Shown here piece by piece: positions 1,282 to 15,224 of a stretch of 39,353 nt of DNA (position 1 is its first letter; the number at the start of each line of letters is the position of its first letter). Origin of the DNA: Acidobacteriota bacterium. GTDB lineage: Bacteria > Acidobacteriota > Terriglobia > Terriglobales > Acidobacteriaceae. The notes below the pieces were generated by a model. It worked only from the letters and a program-made list of their open reading frames with translations. It ran no database searches and was not told where the DNA came from. The position numbers and the translations under genes are program-made. The stretch covers positions 1-39,353 of the forward strand of contig JAJYGR010000205.1 of the NCBI GenBank assembly GCA_021790655.1, read 5' to 3'.

Positions 1282-2046
1282 CTAGTCGATTTTCAGCGCG
1301 AGTCTTTTCTGGCCTACAAAAGATCGAGTTTGTCCCTCTTCATCACAAGTCCACCAAGCGTCCATGTCGCCTCTGAAGATGTTCTGCGGCAACCTGCGTT
1401 TAGCGGTTCCGTTCTCCCAGACAGTTACGCATGGAGTCTCGCTGAACTTAACAGTACCGCTCCGAATGTCTGTCCATCGATCTTCTTTTGTTCTGCCATC
1501 ATCCGTCATTATGTACTTCAGACCTTCCTTAGAAGACGTGTCGTAGTTGGTGAGTGAGATCAGTGCCGCGATTCGAGTGTTTTTAAAACAGTTCGGTCTG
1601 ACCATCTTTCCTTTTCCAACGAGGAATCTGGACTCAATCTTTGAAGCATCAAAGTGACCCAGTTCAGGATTGACAGGGATAGTGACTCCCCAATCACCGT
1701 ACATGGCCCCGAGCATTATTCGTGGGGATAATAGATCGACGAAGCTACCAGGCGCGCCCACTATTACCAATGCACAGAGCGCATCTGGCAAATCCTTGAA
1801 CTTCTTTGTCCCTTCGTCAATCTTTCTTCGGATTTCCTTATGTGGATCAAATGCCGTTAGTGAACCGGCGGGAGGCGGGTGATGAATATCCTTGACCTCG
1901 AACAATATCTGGCCATGCGTTGGGTGTTCCACAACGTAGTCGATCAGTTTGCGCGTGCCGGAAAGAGGCGGCTCGTACTTAAACTTGATACTGTGATCGT
2001 TGAGGTATTTTTCAAAGAGTAATTCTCCATCTGTCTTCACGGTCAC
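1282..2046 (-). CDS. hypothetical protein, possible PD-(D/E)XK-type nuclease
   Basis: 254 aa ORF; 'LIDYVVEHPTHGQILFEVKDI' fits D-X(n)-E-X-K spacing of PD-(D/E)XK nucleases; family assignment by motif only. Confidence 0.6.
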   Translation of the reverse strand: MTVKTDGELLFEKYLNDHSIKFKYEPPLSGTRKLIDYVVEHPTHGQILFEVKDIHHPPPAGSLTAFDPHKEIRRKIDEGTKKFKDLPDALCALVIVGAPGSFVDLLSPRIMLGAMYGDWGVTIPVNPELGHFDASKIESRFLVGKGKMVRPNCFKNTRIAALISLTNYDTSSKEGLKYIMTDDGRTKEDRWTDIRSGTVKFSETPCVTVWENGTAKRRLPQNIFRGDMDAWWTCDEEGQTRSFVGQKRLALKID

Positions 2047-2109
2047 AGTTATTCCTCCTCACTACAATTATGCTCCTCATCTTGTGATTGGAGCAGTCGA
2101 AGCAGCAGC

Positions 2110-2424
2110 TTGCCGCGCTTCAGTCCCATGTCGAGCAGGGCCGTCGATGTCTATAAAAGTGCTTATCCCCTGCAACTGAAATTCGACTATACCTACAAGG
2201 CGAACGAGGCCCCGTTCGATATCCAGTCGATTTATCACGACAACAAATTTACCTATATCAAGACCAATGCGCCGGAGAAGTTCAGCGTATACGAAATGAA
2301 GGACGGCAAACCCAACCTCATCAATTACGACCTCCGCGATGATACCTATATCATCCCGAAAGTCATGGATTCCGGCTATGTGGAACTGGGCAAGAAGCGC
2401 ATGGAATTTTCGCGCAAGGGGTAA
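2110..2424 (+). pseudogene. VirB9/TrbG C-terminal fragment (5' truncated)
   Basis: 'LKFDYTYKANEAPFDIQSIYHDNKFTYIKTNAPEKFSVYEMKDGKPNLINYDLRDDTYIIPKVMDSGYVELGKKRMEFSRKG' resembles the VirB9/TrbG C-terminal domain; N-terminal domain and signal peptide absent; opposite-strand genes lie immediately upstream. Confidence 0.75.
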
Positions 2425-5830: not shown

Positions 5831-6517
5831 ATGAATGTCGCCACAAAAGCAACGCCAACAATTACCCGCGCAGCGGAGCGGTATCTGGAGCAGTATGGCG
5901 ATCCGCTCGTCATGAACACATATCTCAAGATCACAATCCTGAGCCTTGTCATGGTATGTCTTGCCCTCACCGCGCTCGTATTCAAAAGCCAAAAGGCGCT
6001 TGCCTCGATGCGGCCCCTAATCATTCGCATCAACGATGTGGGCCGGGCCGAAGCGATCGACTATCGCAACTTCCAGTACCGCCCGCAGGAAGCGGAGAAC
6101 AAGTATTACCTCACCCGCTGGGCAGAGTTGTATTTCTCGCGTAACCGATTCACCATCGAGCGCGACCAGACCGACTCTCTCTACTTCCTGAACGGCGACG
6201 TACAGCGGGCGGTAATTGCGCAGGAGCAGAAAGACAAGATCATCCAGACGTACAGAAACGACAGCACGCTCCCATATGTGGATGTAGAGGTCAAAAACAT
6301 AGTGCTCGATGACTTGCGGCAATCGCCCTATTCGGCGCGAATTGAATTTGAAAAGGTATTCACGAATCCGTCGGACCACACCGAACTCAAGCGGGAGCGA
6401 TGGACCGCCAGCGTCACCTATGTCTTCCGCGAAAACGTGAAAAACAACGAGCTGGCTGTAAACCCTCTGGGGCTGACCATCGTGCGCTTCCGGGCCGATC
6501 AAGCATTTGGGGAATGA
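5831..6517 (+). CDS. VirB8/TrbF-like T4SS protein
   Basis: ATG at 5831; single N-terminal TM, then periplasmic domain 'YYLTRWAELYFSRNRFTIERDQ...YVDVEVKNIVLDD...RIEFEKVFTN...RERWTASVTYVFRENVKNNELAVNPLGLTIVRFRADQAF', typical of VirB8/TrbF. Confidence 0.85.
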   Translation: MNVATKATPTITRAAERYLEQYGDPLVMNTYLKITILSLVMVCLALTALVFKSQKALASMRPLIIRINDVGRAEAIDYRNFQYRPQEAENKYYLTRWAELYFSRNRFTIERDQTDSLYFLNGDVQRAVIAQEQKDKIIQTYRNDSTLPYVDVEVKNIVLDDLRQSPYSARIEFEKVFTNPSDHTELKRERWTASVTYVFRENVKNNELAVNPLGLTIVRFRADQAFGE

Positions 6518-6540
6518 CGATGCGGCGACTACTTACCGTG

Positions 6541-6954
6541 TTAAAGCGTGATTATCGTCAATTCGGGGATGAGCCTGAAGTGACGCACATTCATCGTTGC
6601 CACAGAGTAGCCATGCTCCAGCGCGGTGGCTCCGATCAGAAGGTCAACGGAAGGAATAATGACGCCGCGCGAACTCTGCTCGCCGTCGATCTTTCCCGCA
6701 AGGAGGGCCGTCGCCTTGGTGTAAGGCACAACCTCCACCTCGATCAACAAATCGTCAATGTATTGCTGACGGCGGTCTCGGACCAGCGGAGCTTGTGCGC
6801 GCCAGATGGCATGAACCAGTTCGGTGAGACCCACTGCAGAGAGTGCGACGCGCTGATCTCCGACAACAGAGACAATCTGCCGGAAAAGCTGTGCCACCGT
6901 GTCCCCTCTACGCTCAGCGGCGATCACGACGCTGGAATCGAGGATCAATCCCAT
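6541..6954 (-). CDS. vapC: VapC-type PIN-domain toxin
   Basis: 137 aa; 'MGLILDSSVVIAAERRG' and C-terminal 'SVDLLIGATALEHGYSVATMNVRHFRLIPEL' are PIN/VapC motifs; overlaps upstream antitoxin. Confidence 0.9.
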   Translation of the reverse strand: MGLILDSSVVIAAERRGDTVAQLFRQIVSVVGDQRVALSAVGLTELVHAIWRAQAPLVRDRRQQYIDDLLIEVEVVPYTKATALLAGKIDGEQSSRGVIIPSVDLLIGATALEHGYSVATMNVRHFRLIPELTIITL

Positions 6955-7226
6955 GGATTCCGCAACGGTTCTGGATGGCTGTTGATAACCGCTTCAAGAT
7001 CGCGTCCAAAGTCGCCGTCGAGAGTCGCCGTCGAGCGGCGTGATTCGGCGGCTGCAATGGTTTCCGATAACAGACGGCCCGGCCCTGGCAACGTCGTAGC
7101 GGAACGCACCACCACGAGCGGAGCGGCGTCCGAATCGATCATAACCTCTTCACCCGCACGCGCACGGGCGAGAACGCCGGCAAAATCGCGTACAGCCTCG
7201 GCTTCTGAGATGTGGACAATTGCCAT
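6945..7226 (-). CDS. VapB/Phd-like antitoxin
   Basis: 93 aa; small ORF directly upstream of and overlapping vapC; N-terminal 'ISEAEAVRDFAGVLARARAGEEVMI' resembles Phd/YefM family. Confidence 0.8.
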   Translation of the reverse strand: MAIVHISEAEAVRDFAGVLARARAGEEVMIDSDAAPLVVVRSATTLPGPGRLLSETIAAAESRRSTATLDGDFGRDLEAVINSHPEPLRNPWD

Positions 7227-7621
7227 GGTTCTGATGATACCCGCTGTCCGTTCCCAATGCCATCTGTATCTCCGCCCGCATCCTCCGGGCCGACCAGCCG
7301 TTCAGCTAAAGAAAAGAACGGCATCTCACGGCGATGCGATTTCCAATCTTGCTGACAATTCGGCTGCCTTACCTGACATGCTTTCGCGCACGGTGGCGCG
7401 GACGAAGGAGAGCCTTCGAGCACGCAACGACGGTGGTGGACTGCACTCTTCTTGCGGAGGCTTCGATAGCTCGAATCAAGCTGCAATGACGGCGAACTTC
7501 TTCGACCAGGGCGCAGATGAAAACTTTGCTCCGGCATGTGTCTGCCGTTTTGTATCCCGCCTTTTGCTCGGTCACGGCTTCGGGGCCTTTCCGTCGCCCG
7601 GCGGCACTCGGTCTTCTGCTT

Positions 7622-7797
7622 CGTTCGCCACTGCGAACGCCCTGCGGGTCACGGTTCCTCCCCGAACAAGTTTGCAAGCAGCGGCAAAGTACGCCACGCA
7701 AACTTCTTCCGGGCCCCTCCCAGAAAGCAGACCTTCGGCGCTTGGGAGCCGGGCCCACTCGCCAGGCTTCGCCCAGTGTGACCCGATCAAGTTCGGG
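7622..7797 (+). ncRNA. candidate structured RNA / cis-regulatory leader upstream of ssb (four consecutive hairpins)
   Basis: CGTTCGC-CACT-GCGAACG (7622-7639); AAGTTTGC...GCAAACTT (7668-7705); GGGCCCCTCCCA...TGGGAG(CC)GGGCCC (7711-7756); CCCGA-...-TCGGG (7782-7797). No convincing coding potential. Confidence 0.4.
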
Positions 7798-7822
7798 AAA
7801 TTCAACAAACGGAGACACGACC

Positions 7823-8212
7823 ATGTATCAGAACAAAGTCAACCTCATCGGCTTCTTAGGTGGCGACGCAGAAGTCCACACCGCCAACAACCGCAGCTTT
7901 ACCACGCTTTCCGTGGCCACCAAGTCCAGCTACAAGGACAAGAAGAGCGGCCAGTATGTCTCGCACACCGAGTGGCACCGTTGCATCGTCTTCGGCAAGC
8001 TCTCGGAGTTCGCCAAGACCCTCACCAAGGGCGCACATGTCCAGGTGGAAGGCGAGCTGCGCAGCCGGGAATACAACAGCAAGAAGACGGACGCCAAGCA
8101 GCGCGTCTGGGAAATTCGAGTCGATTCGATTTTGAAGCTCGACCGCGGCGAGAAGGCCGCCCCGGAAGAGACGGAGAACGATGAGTTCAACCCGGAGGAA
8201 GGGGCCGCGTAG
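7823..8212 (+). CDS. ssb: single-stranded DNA-binding protein
   Basis: 'MYQNKVNLIGFLGGDAEVH...FTTLSVATKSSYKDKKSGQYVSHTEWHRCIVFGKLSEFAKTLTKGAHVQVEGELRSREY' SSB OB fold; RBS-like GGAGA just upstream; acidic tail. Confidence 0.95.
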   Translation: MYQNKVNLIGFLGGDAEVHTANNRSFTTLSVATKSSYKDKKSGQYVSHTEWHRCIVFGKLSEFAKTLTKGAHVQVEGELRSREYNSKKTDAKQRVWEIRVDSILKLDRGEKAAPEETENDEFNPEEGAA

Positions 8213-8259
8213 GCCCTTCCTCTTCAATCGTGGAAGCCTGGCTCCCCGCTGGGCTTCCA
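8195..8259 (+). promoter_or_regulatory. two hairpins spanning the ssb stop codon and the ssb-virB11 gap
   Basis: GAGGAAGGGGCC-GCGTA-GGCCCTTCCTC (8195-8222, one-base bulge) with the stop codon in the loop; TGGAAGCC...GGCTTCCA (8231-8259). No U-tract. Confidence 0.5.
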
Positions 8260-8279
8260 TCTTCGTGAGGTTCCCGCTA

Positions 8280-9263
8280 ATGAGCTTCGAGTTGATCCTT
8301 CCATTCCTTCGCCCCATAGAGCCGCTGTTGCTCGACGATAGCATCAGCGAAATCATGGGCAATCCCGACGCTTCATGGTGGTACGAGCGCGACGGCATCG
8401 TGCGTTGCGAAGCATCCATCTCCTTCGACGCAGATAGGCTTCGCACTGGCCTCGAAGTCATCGCCAATCAACTTGGCAAGAAGCTGGACGAGGACAATCC
8501 CGTCTTGCACGCGCAGCTCCCGGACGGCAGTCGTCTCGCGGCGGTCATTCCTCCCGTTGTGCGCCCCGCTCCGGCGCTGACCATCCGGAAGTTCACCAGC
8601 CGCCATTACAAGGTCGATGACCTGATCGCTCACGGCACGCTGACGCGTCCTCTCGCTGACTTTCTTGAGGCGCAGATCCGCAGCGGAAAGACGCTGCTCA
8701 TCAGCGGCGGAACCGGTTCGGGTAAAACCACGCTCTTGCGAATACTGGCGAACGCCATCCCCGAACAGGAGCGCATCGTTGTCATCGAGGATACTTCCGA
8801 GCTTCACATCCAGAAGCCCAATATCCTGGCCGTGGAATGTCAGACCGATACCTTCAAAGCTGCCATCTCGTTTGATGATCTGCTGAAGTCCGCTCTCCGC
8901 TGGCGACCGGACCGGATCATCCTTGGCGAAGTCCGAGGAATCGAAGCGCGGACGTTGCTCGATTCGTTCAATACCGGGCACTCCGGCTCCCTCGCAACCA
9001 TCCATGCAAACTCGGCGGCAAAGGCGCTCCGCCGCTTCGCCAACCTCGTCCTCCGCAGCCACCAACAAACCACCTATGAGGACATTGAAGCCGAGATTGG
9101 CGAGGCGGTCGATTTCGTCGTCCACATCGAGCGGCAACCTGGTCGTCGCGTCATCCGCGAAGTCCTCCGGCTGGATAACTATGATCGACGCTCTCAGCAG
9201 TTCAAGATGGAGCACGTATTCAGAGCCGATGCTCAAACCTCAACGGAGGTAATGCCATGCTGA
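8280..9263 (+). CDS. virB11: VirB11/TrbB-family T4SS ATPase
   Basis: Walker A 'GGTGSGKTTLLRIL'; 'RWRPDRIILGEVRGIEARTLLDSFNTGHSGSLATIHANS' (Walker B and His box); ATG at 8280. Confidence 0.93.
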   Translation: MSFELILPFLRPIEPLLLDDSISEIMGNPDASWWYERDGIVRCEASISFDADRLRTGLEVIANQLGKKLDEDNPVLHAQLPDGSRLAAVIPPVVRPAPALTIRKFTSRHYKVDDLIAHGTLTRPLADFLEAQIRSGKTLLISGGTGSGKTTLLRILANAIPEQERIVVIEDTSELHIQKPNILAVECQTDTFKAAISFDDLLKSALRWRPDRIILGEVRGIEARTLLDSFNTGHSGSLATIHANSAAKALRRFANLVLRSHQQTTYEDIEAEIGEAVDFVVHIERQPGRRVIREVLRLDNYDRRSQQFKMEHVFRADAQTSTEVMPC

Positions 9264-9947: not shown

Positions 9948-10087
9948 CGGTGCTTCGCACCGGGTTTATTTCGACACTCCACCCCTGAAAGGGTTGCGTT
10001 TGGAACCGTTTCGGTTCCATTTGGGATCGTGCAGAAACAACGGAGTTTATCGGCGCGGCGTTTGATTTTTGGTTCCATTCGGAACCA
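9948..10087. promoter_or_regulatory. palindrome-dense intergenic region; candidate oriT and/or relaxosome operator
   Basis: CGGTGC-TTC-GCACCG (9948-9962), TGGAACCG-TTT-CGGTTCCA (10001-10019), TGGTTCC-ATTC-GGAACCA (10070-10087); directly upstream of mobC-like, coupling protein and relaxase genes. Confidence 0.5.
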
Positions 10088-10117
10088 TGCTTGTCGAACC
10101 GATTTTGGAGGAAAACG

Positions 10118-10519
10118 ATGCCAACTGACTTGTTGCAATTCGAGACTCGGCTGCGGCAGAGCAAAGGCCGCGAAGCTCGCACGCAAAGCATTGCGACACG
10201 CTTCACGCCAGCCGAGGAACAGGTGTTATTGAAGACTGCGGAAGCGTGTGGGCAGAACCTGCGCGAGTGGGCGCGGGATGTGTTGCTGCGCGAAGCAAAA
10301 CAGTCAAGCGACTCCGCCAGTACCGGGGCATTGATGACGGAAATTGTCGGCTTGCAACTCTTTTTGACCGATGTTCTTCAGCCCGTGGCGTGTGGCGAGC
10401 AAATGAGTCCACACCAATATGAGGAATTGATGCGGCAGGTGAAGGCCAGCAAGCAGCAGGCTGCCCGCGAGGTCATCGCGCAGCACGTTGCCGACAATAA
10501 GGGGCAGACCCATGACTGA
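10118..10519 (+). CDS. MobC-like / RHH relaxosome accessory protein
   Basis: ATG 10118 with GGAGG RBS; 'SIATRFTPAEEQVLLKTAEACGQNLREWARDVLLREAK' is typical of plasmid mobilization/RHH accessory proteins; upstream of the coupling protein gene. Confidence 0.7.
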   Translation: MPTDLLQFETRLRQSKGREARTQSIATRFTPAEEQVLLKTAEACGQNLREWARDVLLREAKQSSDSASTGALMTEIVGLQLFLTDVLQPVACGEQMSPHQYEELMRQVKASKQQAAREVIAQHVADNKGQTHD

Positions 10520-12503
10520 ATCACACTGGGGAAGAAAAGAGAGCATTGTCTGGCCGCCGCACAATCCCATCTATACCTATGGCGCGGTCTTCCTCGCGTT
10601 GATTGCGACCGGAGTTTTTCTCTACCTGCACTTTACGTTTGCCCTCTCTCCGCTCCAGCAGTATTACCTGCCGGTCTACCTCAAAGCATCTATGGTTCCG
10701 AGCTTTCGCGCTTCAGCCAACTACCAGATGCTGCTGGTCTCAGATGGCAGAGGACATGCCTGGTATGCCACGGACAAGGATGTTGTTTCCGGCTCGACAC
10801 CACAGCCCGGTGGGAAGCGTTTGCCGCTGGCGTTGTCGGCTTCGGCGAAGCAAAATGGCATCGTCTATCTCTCCCGCAGCGTTCCCGCCAACTATCAAAA
10901 TAACTCGCTGCGAAGCTACCTGAAGCAGCAAATTTATGGTGGCGCTGGCGTTGTGGATATCTTCGAGCGGCCGCTGCTTTTCGGACTGCTGGCACTTCTC
11001 GCCCAGCTTCCGCTTTCCATTCTCAAAGACATTCGACGCCGCAAGCAAATGAAGTATGGACGCCGCCTGAAAGGGCCGATCCTTGTTACGCCGAAAGAGT
11101 TCAACAAGGCATTTGAGGGCACCGGCATCGGGATCAAGACGGATGGCTGCAAGGAGATGCTTCGCATTCCAATCCGTGCCGAGGACCAGCACTTCGAGAT
11201 CATCGGGGACACGGGCAGCGGGAAGACCACGATCATCATGCAGATGCTGCGGCAGATTCAGGCGCGTGGTCACTCCGCCATTCTTTATGACCCAGCCTGC
11301 GAGTTCATTGAGCGGTTCTACGATGAAAAGCGCGGCGACATTGTGCTCAACCCGTTGGACCGTCGTTGTCCGTACTGGGGGCCGTCGGAGGAACTGGTAC
11401 GGCGTGCGGAAGCACGCACCGTCGCGGCTTCGCTCTTTCAGCCGACGAGCGACAAAAAGGGCGAGTTCTTCATTGAAAGTCCGCAGAAAATCTTCGCGCA
11501 TTTACTGCTGGAGTTGCCGACCCCGCAACAATTGATCGAGTGGATGTCGCACCCGGAAGAGATCGACCGCCGCGTCAAGGGAACCGAACTTGCATCGTTG
11601 ATCGAGCCGTCCGCTCCGCAGCAGCGCTCTGGCGTGCTCGGCTCTCTGAGCCTGGTCGCCGATAGCTTTCGTCTATTGCCCAGGAAGGCCGAAGCCAAGA
11701 CCGAATGGACGGCGCGAGAATGGTCGGAGAAGCGGCAGGGGTGGATATTCATCACTTCCCAGCCCGCCGAGCGGGAAGCGCTTCGTCCGCTGCATAGTCT
11801 TTGGATCGACATGCTCGTTCTCCGGCTGCTCAGTTCGCCGAAGCCCGAACAGCATCCAGTCTGGTTTGTGCTGGACGAGCTGGCCAGCTTGCAGAAACTG
11901 CCGCAGCTCCATACTGCCATCACGGAAAACCGCAAGTCCCGCAACCCAATTGTTCTCGGCTTTCAGGGCAAAGCCCAGCTTGAGGTGATGTATGGGCATC
12001 TGGCGGAAGTCATGCTTTCGCAGCCTGCCACGAAGATTTTTCTGAAGACTGGGGAGCCGGATGCCGCCGAATGGGTCAGCTGCGCCATTGGCAAAGTAGA
12101 GATCGAACGCATGAAGGAAACGCACTACGACGGCAGCCGCAGCGGGCGCAACTTTGCGCTCGACCGGCAGACGGAGCCGCTCGTCCTTGATTCTGAAATC
12201 AGCGGACTGGAGCCGATGCACGCGTATCTGAAGCATGGGAATTACGTGGCGCAGTTTTCCTTTCCGAAGCTTGAAATTCCGCCAACGAAGGCAAAGTTTA
12301 TCGAACGCCTGGAAGACGACTACATCATCCGGCAACCGCGCAAGGAACAGCCTCCCACTGCAAAGACCGATGACCACCAGGTCACTGCCGTCCGAGTGGC
12401 GCAGGCGATTCCTGCCGAGGAACGGAAACGCCCGCAAGCCGTTGACAGGCCGGAAGCGGAGCCAGAGAAGCAAAAATCCTTCACGTTTGGTCCGAGGATT
12501 TGA
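10512..12503 (+). CDS. TrwB/TraD/VirD4-type coupling protein
   Basis: ATG 10512; 'HFEIIGDTGSGKTTIIMQMLRQIQARGHSAILYDPACEFIERFYDEKRGDIVLNPLDRRCPYW' matches TraD/TrwB DNA-binding ATPases; N-terminal TMs. Confidence 0.92.
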   Translation: MTESHWGRKESIVWPPHNPIYTYGAVFLALIATGVFLYLHFTFALSPLQQYYLPVYLKASMVPSFRASANYQMLLVSDGRGHAWYATDKDVVSGSTPQPGGKRLPLALSASAKQNGIVYLSRSVPANYQNNSLRSYLKQQIYGGAGVVDIFERPLLFGLLALLAQLPLSILKDIRRRKQMKYGRRLKGPILVTPKEFNKAFEGTGIGIKTDGCKEMLRIPIRAEDQHFEIIGDTGSGKTTIIMQMLRQIQARGHSAILYDPACEFIERFYDEKRGDIVLNPLDRRCPYWGPSEELVRRAEARTVAASLFQPTSDKKGEFFIESPQKIFAHLLLELPTPQQLIEWMSHPEEIDRRVKGTELASLIEPSAPQQRSGVLGSLSLVADSFRLLPRKAEAKTEWTAREWSEKRQGWIFITSQPAEREALRPLHSLWIDMLVLRLLSSPKPEQHPVWFVLDELASLQKLPQLHTAITENRKSRNPIVLGFQGKAQLEVMYGHLAEVMLSQPATKIFLKTGEPDAAEWVSCAIGKVEIERMKETHYDGSRSGRNFALDRQTEPLVLDSEISGLEPMHAYLKHGNYVAQFSFPKLEIPPTKAKFIERLEDDYIIRQPRKEQPPTAKTDDHQVTAVRVAQAIPAEERKRPQAVDRPEAEPEKQKSFTFGPRI

Positions 12504-12506
12504 GCC

Positions 12507-15224
12507 ATGTTGACCATCTCGAAACCACTCTCCGCTGGCCAGGCGCAGAACTATCACCAGAAAGAGTTCACTGCTAAAGAGCAGAATTACTGGTCGCAGC
12601 GTGGTGTCATTGCCGGGCAGTGGCAAGGCCAGCTCGCTTCGCAATTCGGACTCACTGGAAATGTTTCCGCAGAGGACTTCGCGCGTTTGAGCCAGGGCAA
12701 GCATCCACAGACCGGCGAACAACTTGTCCGCCAGCGTGCCTCCTATGAATACCAGGATGCCGATGGCAAAACCATCAAGGCAATGGAGCACCGGGCCGGA
12801 TGGGACGCGACTTTCTCCGCGCCGAAATCTGTTTCACTTACCGCGCTGGTTGGCGGGGATGACCGCGTGCGCGCAGCCCATCGGGAAAGCGTCCGCGTGG
12901 CTCTCGAACAACTGGAGCATTACACGCAGGCCCGCATTGGCGGGAACCATCCGCCGGAGACCACAGGCAAGTTTATCGCTGCAAAGTTTGAACATGATAC
13001 AGCCCGGCCCGTGGATGGTTATGTCGCGCCGCAACTCCATACCCATGCCGTTATCTTCAATCTCACAGAACGCGATGGAGGTCAGGCCCGCGCCGTCCAG
13101 CCGCAGAGTTTATTTCAATCGCAGCAGTTTGCCACGGCGGTCTACCAGTCGGAGTTGATGTACCGGCTTCGCCAGCTTGGTTATGAAATCACGCCCGGCA
13201 GAAGCGGCGCACCGGAGATCAAAGGCTACACGCAGGAATACCTCGACGCATCCAGCCCGCGCAGCCAGCAGATTCGGGAGTATCTCGAACGCACGGGCCG
13301 CACTGGCAAAGAGGCCGCCGAAATCGCCGCGCACTTCACACGCGACAGAAAAGAGATGCACTCGCCCGGTGAGGTCATGGCTGCCCATCGCAAGCTGGCC
13401 GCCGATTATGGACATCAGTCGGACGCTGTTGTCCGTGCCGCGAGAGAACGGTTGCATCAACAGACCCAATCCGTTCCACCAGAGCAGCGCGTTCGGGAGG
13501 CACTGACCTTCTCTCGTGACAAGAATTTCGAGCGCGAGGCCGTTATCGACGAACGCGCTTTGGTTCGCGACGCACTCCGTCGCGGCATGGGCGATGTGAC
13601 CTATCCACAGGTGCGCGCGAATCTCAACGCTCGCCTTGCTTCCGGTGAATTTCAGATTGTGGAGAGATCTCAAAGCCTGCCAGGCCGCCAGTTCACCACA
13701 GCAAAAACCATCGAGGCCGAACATGAGATTGTTCGGCGAATGCGCGAGGGACAGAAACAACTCAAGCCCGTGATGACCCGTTCTGAAGCCATCCAAGTGG
13801 CTGATCAGTATCCGCACCTCAACCACGCCCAGAAGAGCGTGGTCGAGGATGTTTTGAGTTCTCCCGACCGCATTCATGGAATTCAGGGAGTCGCCGGAGC
13901 AGGCAAGACGACTACTCTTGCCGTGCTGCGAGGTGCAGCCGAGGCCCAAGGCTATGAAGTCACAGGCCTCGCGCCAACCTCTCGCGCCGCGCGACAACTG
14001 AACGAAGCAGGCATCGAGGGTGGAACTCTGCAAGGTTTTCTTGCCCAATCAACGAAACCGGAGAATCAGGAGCAGAAGCATTTCTATTTTATTGATGAAT
14101 CCAGCCTCGCCAGCACCAACCAGATGCGCGAGTTCCTTGCACGCATTGGCCCGAACGACCGCGTGCTTTTGATTGGGGACATCCGTCAGCATCAGGGTGT
14201 CGAAGCTGGCCGCCCTTTTGAGCAATTGCAGGAGGCCGGAATGCGAACCGCCAAGCTCGATGAAATCATTCGCCAGAAAGACCCGGCACTGAAGTCTACG
14301 GTCGAACTGCTGGCGACGGGCCAGGTCTCCGCTGCGCTCGACGCACTGCAACAGCAGGGCCGTATCAAGGAGATTCCGAATGCAGAAGAACGCATCCGGG
14401 CCATTGCAAAAAGCTACGTTGAATCGCCAGAAAAGACCCTCATTGTTTCACCGGACAACGCATCCCGCCGCGAGTTGAATGTTGCCGTGCGGCAGGAATT
14501 GAAGTCCAACGGAGCCGTTGCCCAGGAAGACCATCCCATTCGCGTTCTCATCCAGCGCCAAGACATGACTGGCGCGGAACGCGCATGGGCCAGCCACTAC
14601 GAAATCAACGATGTGGTTCGCTATGCACGCGGCAGCAAGAATGCCGGAATCGAAGCTGGCTCCTACGGTACGGTCATCGCGATCAACGCATCGGCAAACC
14701 TGCTTACCGTTGAAAGAGCGTCCGTCGAACTCGCCACCTACGATCCGCGCCGACTGACCGGTGTCAGCGTGTACCGCGAAGTCGCACATGAATTTTCTGT
14801 TGGCGACCGCATTCAATTCACCGCGCCGGACAAGTCGCTGGGCGTCGCCAATCGCGACCTTGCCATCATCGAAGCCATCCATCCCGATGGTCGAATCACT
14901 GCACGACTCGACAACAATCGCCAGATCGAATTCAACGCCACTGAGCATCGCCACTTCGATCATGGCTACGCCGTCACCAGCCACAGTGCCCAGGGTCTGA
15001 CCGCCGAGCGTGTTCTCATCCATGCCGACACCAGCGTTCATCCCGACCTGCTCAATTCCCGCTTCGGTTATGTCTCCTTCTCCCGCGCCAGTCACGAAGC
15101 CACTCTCTTTACCAACGATGTTGCCAAACTCACCCCGCAACTCAGCGCCGATGTCAGCAAAACTTCCGCGATTGAAATCAACCAGGCCCCATCCGTCGCC
15201 CAGGGAATTGGAATCGGGCTGTGA
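12507..15224 (+). CDS. MobF-family conjugative relaxase-helicase (TrwC/TraA-like)
   Basis: 905 aa; N-terminal Tyr-rich start, His triad 'PQLHTHAVIFN', helicase Walker A 'GVAGAGKTTTL', C-terminal 'YAVTSHSAQGLTAERVLI'. Confidence 0.95.
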   Translation: MLTISKPLSAGQAQNYHQKEFTAKEQNYWSQRGVIAGQWQGQLASQFGLTGNVSAEDFARLSQGKHPQTGEQLVRQRASYEYQDADGKTIKAMEHRAGWDATFSAPKSVSLTALVGGDDRVRAAHRESVRVALEQLEHYTQARIGGNHPPETTGKFIAAKFEHDTARPVDGYVAPQLHTHAVIFNLTERDGGQARAVQPQSLFQSQQFATAVYQSELMYRLRQLGYEITPGRSGAPEIKGYTQEYLDASSPRSQQIREYLERTGRTGKEAAEIAAHFTRDRKEMHSPGEVMAAHRKLAADYGHQSDAVVRAARERLHQQTQSVPPEQRVREALTFSRDKNFEREAVIDERALVRDALRRGMGDVTYPQVRANLNARLASGEFQIVERSQSLPGRQFTTAKTIEAEHEIVRRMREGQKQLKPVMTRSEAIQVADQYPHLNHAQKSVVEDVLSSPDRIHGIQGVAGAGKTTTLAVLRGAAEAQGYEVTGLAPTSRAARQLNEAGIEGGTLQGFLAQSTKPENQEQKHFYFIDESSLASTNQMREFLARIGPNDRVLLIGDIRQHQGVEAGRPFEQLQEAGMRTAKLDEIIRQKDPALKSTVELLATGQVSAALDALQQQGRIKEIPNAEERIRAIAKSYVESPEKTLIVSPDNASRRELNVAVRQELKSNGAVAQEDHPIRVLIQRQDMTGAERAWASHYEINDVVRYARGSKNAGIEAGSYGTVIAINASANLLTVERASVELATYDPRRLTGVSVYREVAHEFSVGDRIQFTAPDKSLGVANRDLAIIEAIHPDGRITARLDNNRQIEFNATEHRHFDHGYAVTSHSAQGLTAERVLIHADTSVHPDLLNSRFGYVSFSRASHEATLFTNDVAKLTPQLSADVSKTSAIEINQAPSVAQGIGIGL

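Follow-up and report, generated by a model that had tools for sequence, protein, structure and literature searches.

The window, by which we mean the whole 39,353 nucleotides analysed, belongs to a draft acidobacterial genome of 3.56 Mb in 359 contigs. Its ssb gene (7823-8212, plus strand) is identified as PF00436 by domain search and is followed in the same orientation by a virB11-like ATPase gene (8181-9263, +). Further along are genes for a NikA-like relaxosome accessory protein (10091-10519, +; its match is below the Pfam cut-off), a TrwB/VirD4 coupling protein (10488-12503, +), and a MOBF TrwC-type relaxase-helicase (12507-15224, +). On the other side, between virB8 and the ssb leader, an antisense gene for a PIN-domain toxin lies at 6541-7226 (-) and, with a small ORF upstream of it, looks like a VapBC-like pair; the PIN gene is at the same place in only some relatives (L004, L029). 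The virB9 gene seems truncated, with only its C-terminal part (2110-2424) left beside an opposed nuclease-like ORF (window 1282-2424), suggesting an insertion or an element edge. The object of interest is the leader just upstream of ssb, where a structured element at 7530-7802, probably folding as the minus strand, is followed directly on its 3' side by the Shine-Dalgarno region CGGAGA (7808-7815, +).

A first-pass annotation had described this leader as a noncoding chain of hairpins. The letters it pointed to are all there, namely the 7 bp hairpin CGTTCGC-CACT-GCGAACG (7622-7639), the 8 bp motif AAGTTTGC...GCAAACTT (7668-7705), the 12 bp GGGCCC hairpin GGGCCCCTCCCA...TGGGAGCCGGGCCC (7711-7756), CCCGA...TCGGG (7782-7797), and the repeat GGTCACGG at 7570 and 7648. 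The single leader sequence folds moderately better than chance (z = -2.58, with 3 of 200 shuffles as good). That it lacks convincing coding holds up as well, as no reading frame through it is conserved: in 43 of 97 copies a stop interrupts the ssb frame, and the lengths are not multiples of 3. The overlapping ORFs at 7517-8212 (+), 7369-7824 (-), and 6400-8184 (+) were dropped as unconserved. An Rfam scan of the leader region returns chance matches only, at gathering and at relaxed thresholds, and so assigns it to no family.

Copies of the leader are found well beyond close strains, throughout Acidobacteriaceae and the class Terriglobia. A DNA search over 100 relatives has matches in 16 genomes, with up to 7 per genome; locus L016 was discarded as a chance blast match within another gene. 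A covariance model (R1) based on 18 copies, with the apical region trimmed and the structure set by hand, hits the window at 7554-7802 with 134.8 bits. It matches 131 of 398 genomes in the family Acidobacteriaceae and 56 of 250 in the class Terriglobia, four further families among them, and beyond the class it reaches a few distant members of the phylum. Named carriers are Granulicella, Edaphobacter, Terriglobus, Acidipila, and Bryocella. Matches in other phyla from an exact-pattern scan fail the covariance model and are chance. One of three viral contigs fits the model, with a good copy at 109 bits (L349, an IMG/VR contig filed as viral). One genome, G239, has six weak scattered copies; two of its loci (L094, L095) have no obvious conjugation operon in the stretch covered, and in at least L094 the copy is followed by a small SSB-like gene.

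What the homologues have in common, aligned as 26 copies and then about 100, is not a chain but a single long branched hairpin covering about 7530-7800 of the window. A small upstream hairpin, P0 (GGCATGTGTCTGCC, 7532-7547), was picked out by eye in the alignment. The basal stem, P1, joins a 5' arm of TCCCG plus TTTGCTCGG (7555-7571) to a 3' arm at 7783-7798, both recognized by covariation. Above it, the P2 5' arm GGGC....CCGTC.CCC.G.GGC (7583-7605) pairs with 7738-7756 (helices 2-3, 98-99% of cells paired), and the P3 5' arm GGTCTTCTGCTT (7610-7621), holding an unpaired TCT, pairs with 7725-7733. The 3' arms of P3 and P2 together span 7725-7756, and a side hairpin CTCGC..GGCTTCGCC..GTGTG follows at 7760-7778, each supported by alignment and covariation. 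Landmarks kept across copies are TCTGCTT with its unpaired TCT (invariant in A1), CTTGGGAGC in the 3' arms, and CTCGC...GTGTG. The apical branches differ in sequence and length among the aligned copies, and the alignments place the 7 bp and 8 bp hairpins there: the former is P4 (7622-7639), sequence-variable and absent in some copies, and the latter is part of P5 (7648-7720), which varies in length. The copies do not conserve the 12 bp GGGCCC hairpin, whose two halves are paired in 31% and 62% of cells, and CCCGA...TCGGG (70% paired) is another way of pairing bases that are part of the basal stem. A palindromic segment of about 40-50 nt, of the type CACGCAACAA.CGCGTGCCGGGGACCCCGG, is inserted in leader loops and not stems of several copies (L029, L004, L020, L009, L026, L011), in different loops per copy and in two places in L004, and resembles a REP-like mobile palindrome.

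Covariation in two sets bears out the claim that a conserved structure precedes ssb. Over 99 distinct copies, 90.5% of cells are paired and 29 of 45 pairs have changed on both sides. Double-changed cells number 361, versus 111 +/- 9 after shuffling and 31-93 with the partner slid along; an independent distant set of 27 copies has 138 versus 44 +/- 7 in shuffles. The shuffles disregard relatedness while the slid-partner controls retain it, and both give the same answer. The leader region is a real conserved fold, and its covariation is very strong.

The genes behind the fold are an indication of its role. Of the 100 copies in the main set, 93 stand before ssb and 2 before a methyltransferase gene, and the remaining five are at a contig end, at disrupted ssb starts, before a divergent small protein, or unclassified. 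Most copies from the DNA search immediately precede ssb within type IV secretion operons of two gene orders, and others are directly before a PF01555 DNA methyltransferase (N6/N4). The distant copies precede ssb, genes with an ArdC-N domain, RadC-like genes, or ssb and then ArdC. Across copies, the gap from the structure to the ATG start codon is 15-25 nt. The elements of layout C have two copies in the same direction about 11.6 kb apart, of which one precedes the methyltransferase and the other ssb. In these methyltransferase-type integrative elements (ICEs), neither a relaxase nor an oriT was recognised within 20 kb. Together, ssb and the N6/N4 DNA methyltransferase, ArdC, and RadC-like genes make up the classic anti-defence set of leading regions; a leading-region anti-defence repertoire has been described in which Frpo is directly upstream of ssb (PMC11541004).

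Some neighborhoods are out of the ordinary. A second ICE type (L080-L085, L089) has two structure copies, for the methyltransferase and for ssb, with a C5-cytosine-methyltransferase-like ORF before the ssb copy, and lies beside integrase or recombinase genes with no relaxase recognised. An extra copy in L088 (7248-7913, -) is followed by a divergent small SSB/OB-like protein and then a PAPS-reductase-like gene. Copies in L369 (1244-2218) and L370 (1-852) precede proteins of 284-325 aa that have no Pfam match but have N-termini (MTEEI...) similar to those of the ArdC-type neighbours. In the window genome itself, the methyltransferase copy (L093, G000:C62, near 1-230) runs for about 40 codons and is then interrupted by unrelated sequence close to the contig end.

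The direction of DNA transfer relative to the leader can be approached through a core sequence, CGGTGCtnCGCACCG..TATtTCGACACTCCACCCCTnAnAGGG, which MOBF elements carry between o9603 and the NikA-like gene and which is near-invariant in 10 aligned elements. The family has 49 such cores, and a reversed-pattern control finds nothing in the genomes listed. On the minus strand, the core reads as a hairpin and then GTGGAGTGT/CG, which is identical at 8 of 9 positions to the F nic site GTGGGGTGT/GG, as taken from an F nic-region oligonucleotide (PMC5422253). From this resemblance we consider it a candidate F-like MOBF oriT, previously unlabelled and newly recognised. In the window it occupies 9950-9995 (-), with a predicted nic between 9974 and 9973 (GTGGAGTGT/CGAAA) that would send the T-strand leftward to ssb and away from the relaxase genes. 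The inverted-repeat pair GGAACCGTTTCGGTTCC and GGTTCCATTCGGAACC at 10000-10090 are likely oriT accessory-protein sites, and element-specific accessory inverted repeats adjoin the oriT core of the acidobacterial MOBF elements in general.

If cleavage is F-like, then the minus strand of the MOBF elements would be transferred toward ssb, so that ssb would be transcribed from the transferred strand. The order and direction in F are the same (methylase, antirestriction gene, ssb, psiB, oriT, tra), and the F T-strand oligonucleotide maps to the minus strand. In all 31 cores with a nearby listed copy, the leader is on the same strand as the core and 1786-2299 bp away, a distance held although the intervening genes differ; since the 31 elements are related, these are not 31 independent events. 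Another 18 oriT cores have no nearby copy among the matches listed, and some of these are at contig ends.

The question of which strand folds can be put to the mismatches in the stems. The folding strand tolerates a G.U (or G.T) pair, whose complement is an A.C mismatch. An RNA selected in the plus sense should therefore have G.T far exceeding A.C in plus-strand letters. The RNase P RNA of the same family, which we used as the RNA control because the TPP riboswitch is too rare in these genomes, does so, with 97 G.T versus 38 A.C events. The leader is the reverse, with 37 G.T versus 72 A.C (binomial p = 0.001), and the two sets of counts differ with a Fisher p of 4e-9. Events are by parsimony on trees made from the same sequences. 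With another aligner and pairs predicted from either strand, the leader gives 37:66 and 34:63, and RNase P gives 93:38 and 81:35. The alignment behind the 37 and 72 events was made with an RNA-based model, which should favor G.U over A.C, so any such bias runs against the leader result. Consensus folding agrees: the leader does better as the minus strand (-101.4 minus versus -97.1 plus) and RNase P as the plus strand (-297.0 plus versus -257.8 minus). Twelve Frpo sequences have G.T at 5 or 4 positions versus A.C at 7 or 10, depending on the pair set, and fold at -146.0 minus versus -125.1 plus; that set is small and closely related, making it a directional check only. Mutational strand bias was considered as the source of the asymmetry and rejected: upstream, A equals T and G exceeds C, which is not as expected, and the equality of A and T indicates no obvious bias of this kind. 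Given the mismatch tolerance on the minus strand, selection most likely acts on the single strand of DNA that enters the cell and not on a leader RNA.

This result bears hardest on the headline of the first-pass annotation, a structured RNA. A folded 5' region of the ssb mRNA that controls transcription or translation, for instance by binding SSB, would go with the strong covariation, with a position directly before the ribosome-binding site at near-constant spacing, and with the use of one leader type before several genes. We nevertheless think it unlikely, since the wobble is reversed relative to RNase P whichever aligner is used, the 5' end lacks a conserved promoter, Rfam has no match, and the fixed polarity with respect to oriT is left unexplained. 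Somewhat less credence goes to a pure ssi/sso primer site, a T-strand hairpin that loads primase or polymerase for the second strand with no part in gene expression. A T-strand fold near oriT is what it predicts, canonical promoter boxes were not found, and in F the roles of ssi and Frpo overlap (PMC7736820); but a primer has no need to be 15-25 nt before anti-defence start codons, nor to be present twice per element before different anti-defence genes. A noncoding RNA from the minus strand, antisense or trans-acting, would yield the same minus-strand wobble signature, and yet we hold it to be very improbable, as it fits poorly with the near-constant spacing from the start codons of unrelated plus-strand genes, its 5' end would fall in or beside ssb, and Rfam has no such RNA. 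A duplex-DNA feature (operator, cruciform, or recombination hotspot) has the inverted-repeat character and the several copies per genome on its side, but is just as improbable because it predicts no strand asymmetry of mismatches where one is seen, and a branched fold of 250 nt with conserved bulges is unlike an operator.

Our preferred reading, to which we give a probability of about 0.7, is that the element is a structure of T-strand DNA, an Frpo-like single-strand promoter and possibly also a primer site, for immediate early expression. The annotation's most tentative idea had been of this kind. A single-stranded DNA structure is now strongly favored by the leading-region genes, the strand and distance of oriT, and a minus-strand wobble as in Frpo; the promoter role is proposed by analogy. 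In the mechanism we envisage, a Terriglobia conjugative element would enter the recipient as single-stranded DNA and its minus strand would fold into the one long branched hairpin, standing just upstream of ssb, or in sister copies of the DNA methyltransferase, ArdC, or RadC-like gene. The recipient's transcription machinery would recognise the duplex-like stem, presumably through its polymerase, and transcribe toward the T-strand 5' end, probably starting near the stem base about 15-25 nt before the start codon. Transcription from the folded T-strand would thereby provide SSB and anti-restriction proteins ahead of second-strand synthesis, which the transcript may also prime. Conversion to duplex would remove the hairpin and turn the promoter off.

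There are no conserved boxes of a conventional duplex promoter just upstream of the structure, which speaks for the T-strand reading. Frpo has been described as rebuilding -10 and -35 boxes in the fold (PMC9849209). When the side hairpin is removed and the folded stem is searched for sigma70 -10/-35 boxes, the best mean match to TATAAT is 1.9-2.2 of 6, by an E. coli consensus from which this lineage may differ. A blastn search of window 7480-8212 against plasmids, looking for similarity to Frpo, matched the ssb gene only. Both results count against the promoter reading. With neither Frpo homology nor E. coli-like boxes found, we describe the element as one that would work like Frpo, and do not file it as a member. 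Going further, it is possible, though we rate the odds as clearly below even, that these are folded-DNA promoters of a class-wide family that arose independently in Acidobacteriota, is recognised without sigma70-type -10/-35 boxes, and places several anti-defence genes under one entry-sensing switch.

The single-strand promoters known from experiment are from a handful of enterobacterial plasmids, and further ones have been added through similar sequence and searches for promoter boxes. In a search of open-licence papers, we found no report of single-strand promoters in Acidobacteriota and no description of this leader element. A structure defined by covariation, occurring class-wide in soil bacteria, points to the Frpo strategy operating without sequence similarity, and suggests that conjugation generally involves switching on SSB, methyltransferase, ArdC, and RadC-like genes at entry.

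Of the known systems, Frpo1 and Frpo2 of plasmid F and ssi2 and ssi3 of ColIb-P9 are the closest in kind, in that the transferred strand forms a long hairpin ahead of ssb and anti-restriction genes. F has the gene order and direction of the acidobacterial element relative to a MOBF oriT, with the transferred strand as template, and Frpo like the leader has more A.C than G.T on the coding strand. The leader differs from Frpo and ssi in having no detectable sequence similarity, another branching, no E. coli-type -10/-35 boxes, an Acidobacteriota host, and a promoter role that is predicted. M.EcoGIX, a plasmid methyltransferase specific for single strands, is expressed from Frpo (PMC7736820), and the layout C ICEs likewise have a DNA methyltransferase gene directly behind the structure; single-strand specificity is a feature of the M.EcoGIX type, whereas the layout C enzyme is known as PF01555 from its sequence. 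The STAXI motif (RF01728) is also a structured element near ssb, antirestriction, and integrase genes, and its authors also weighed a role in single-stranded DNA (PMC2864571). It is made of tandem pseudoknots and found in Enterobacteriales, unlike the leader, which matches RF01728 neither at the gathering threshold nor at relaxed ones. Wobble asymmetry shows on which strand a conserved fold has been selected, and the test could serve for other unexplained structures of mobile elements, STAXI included.
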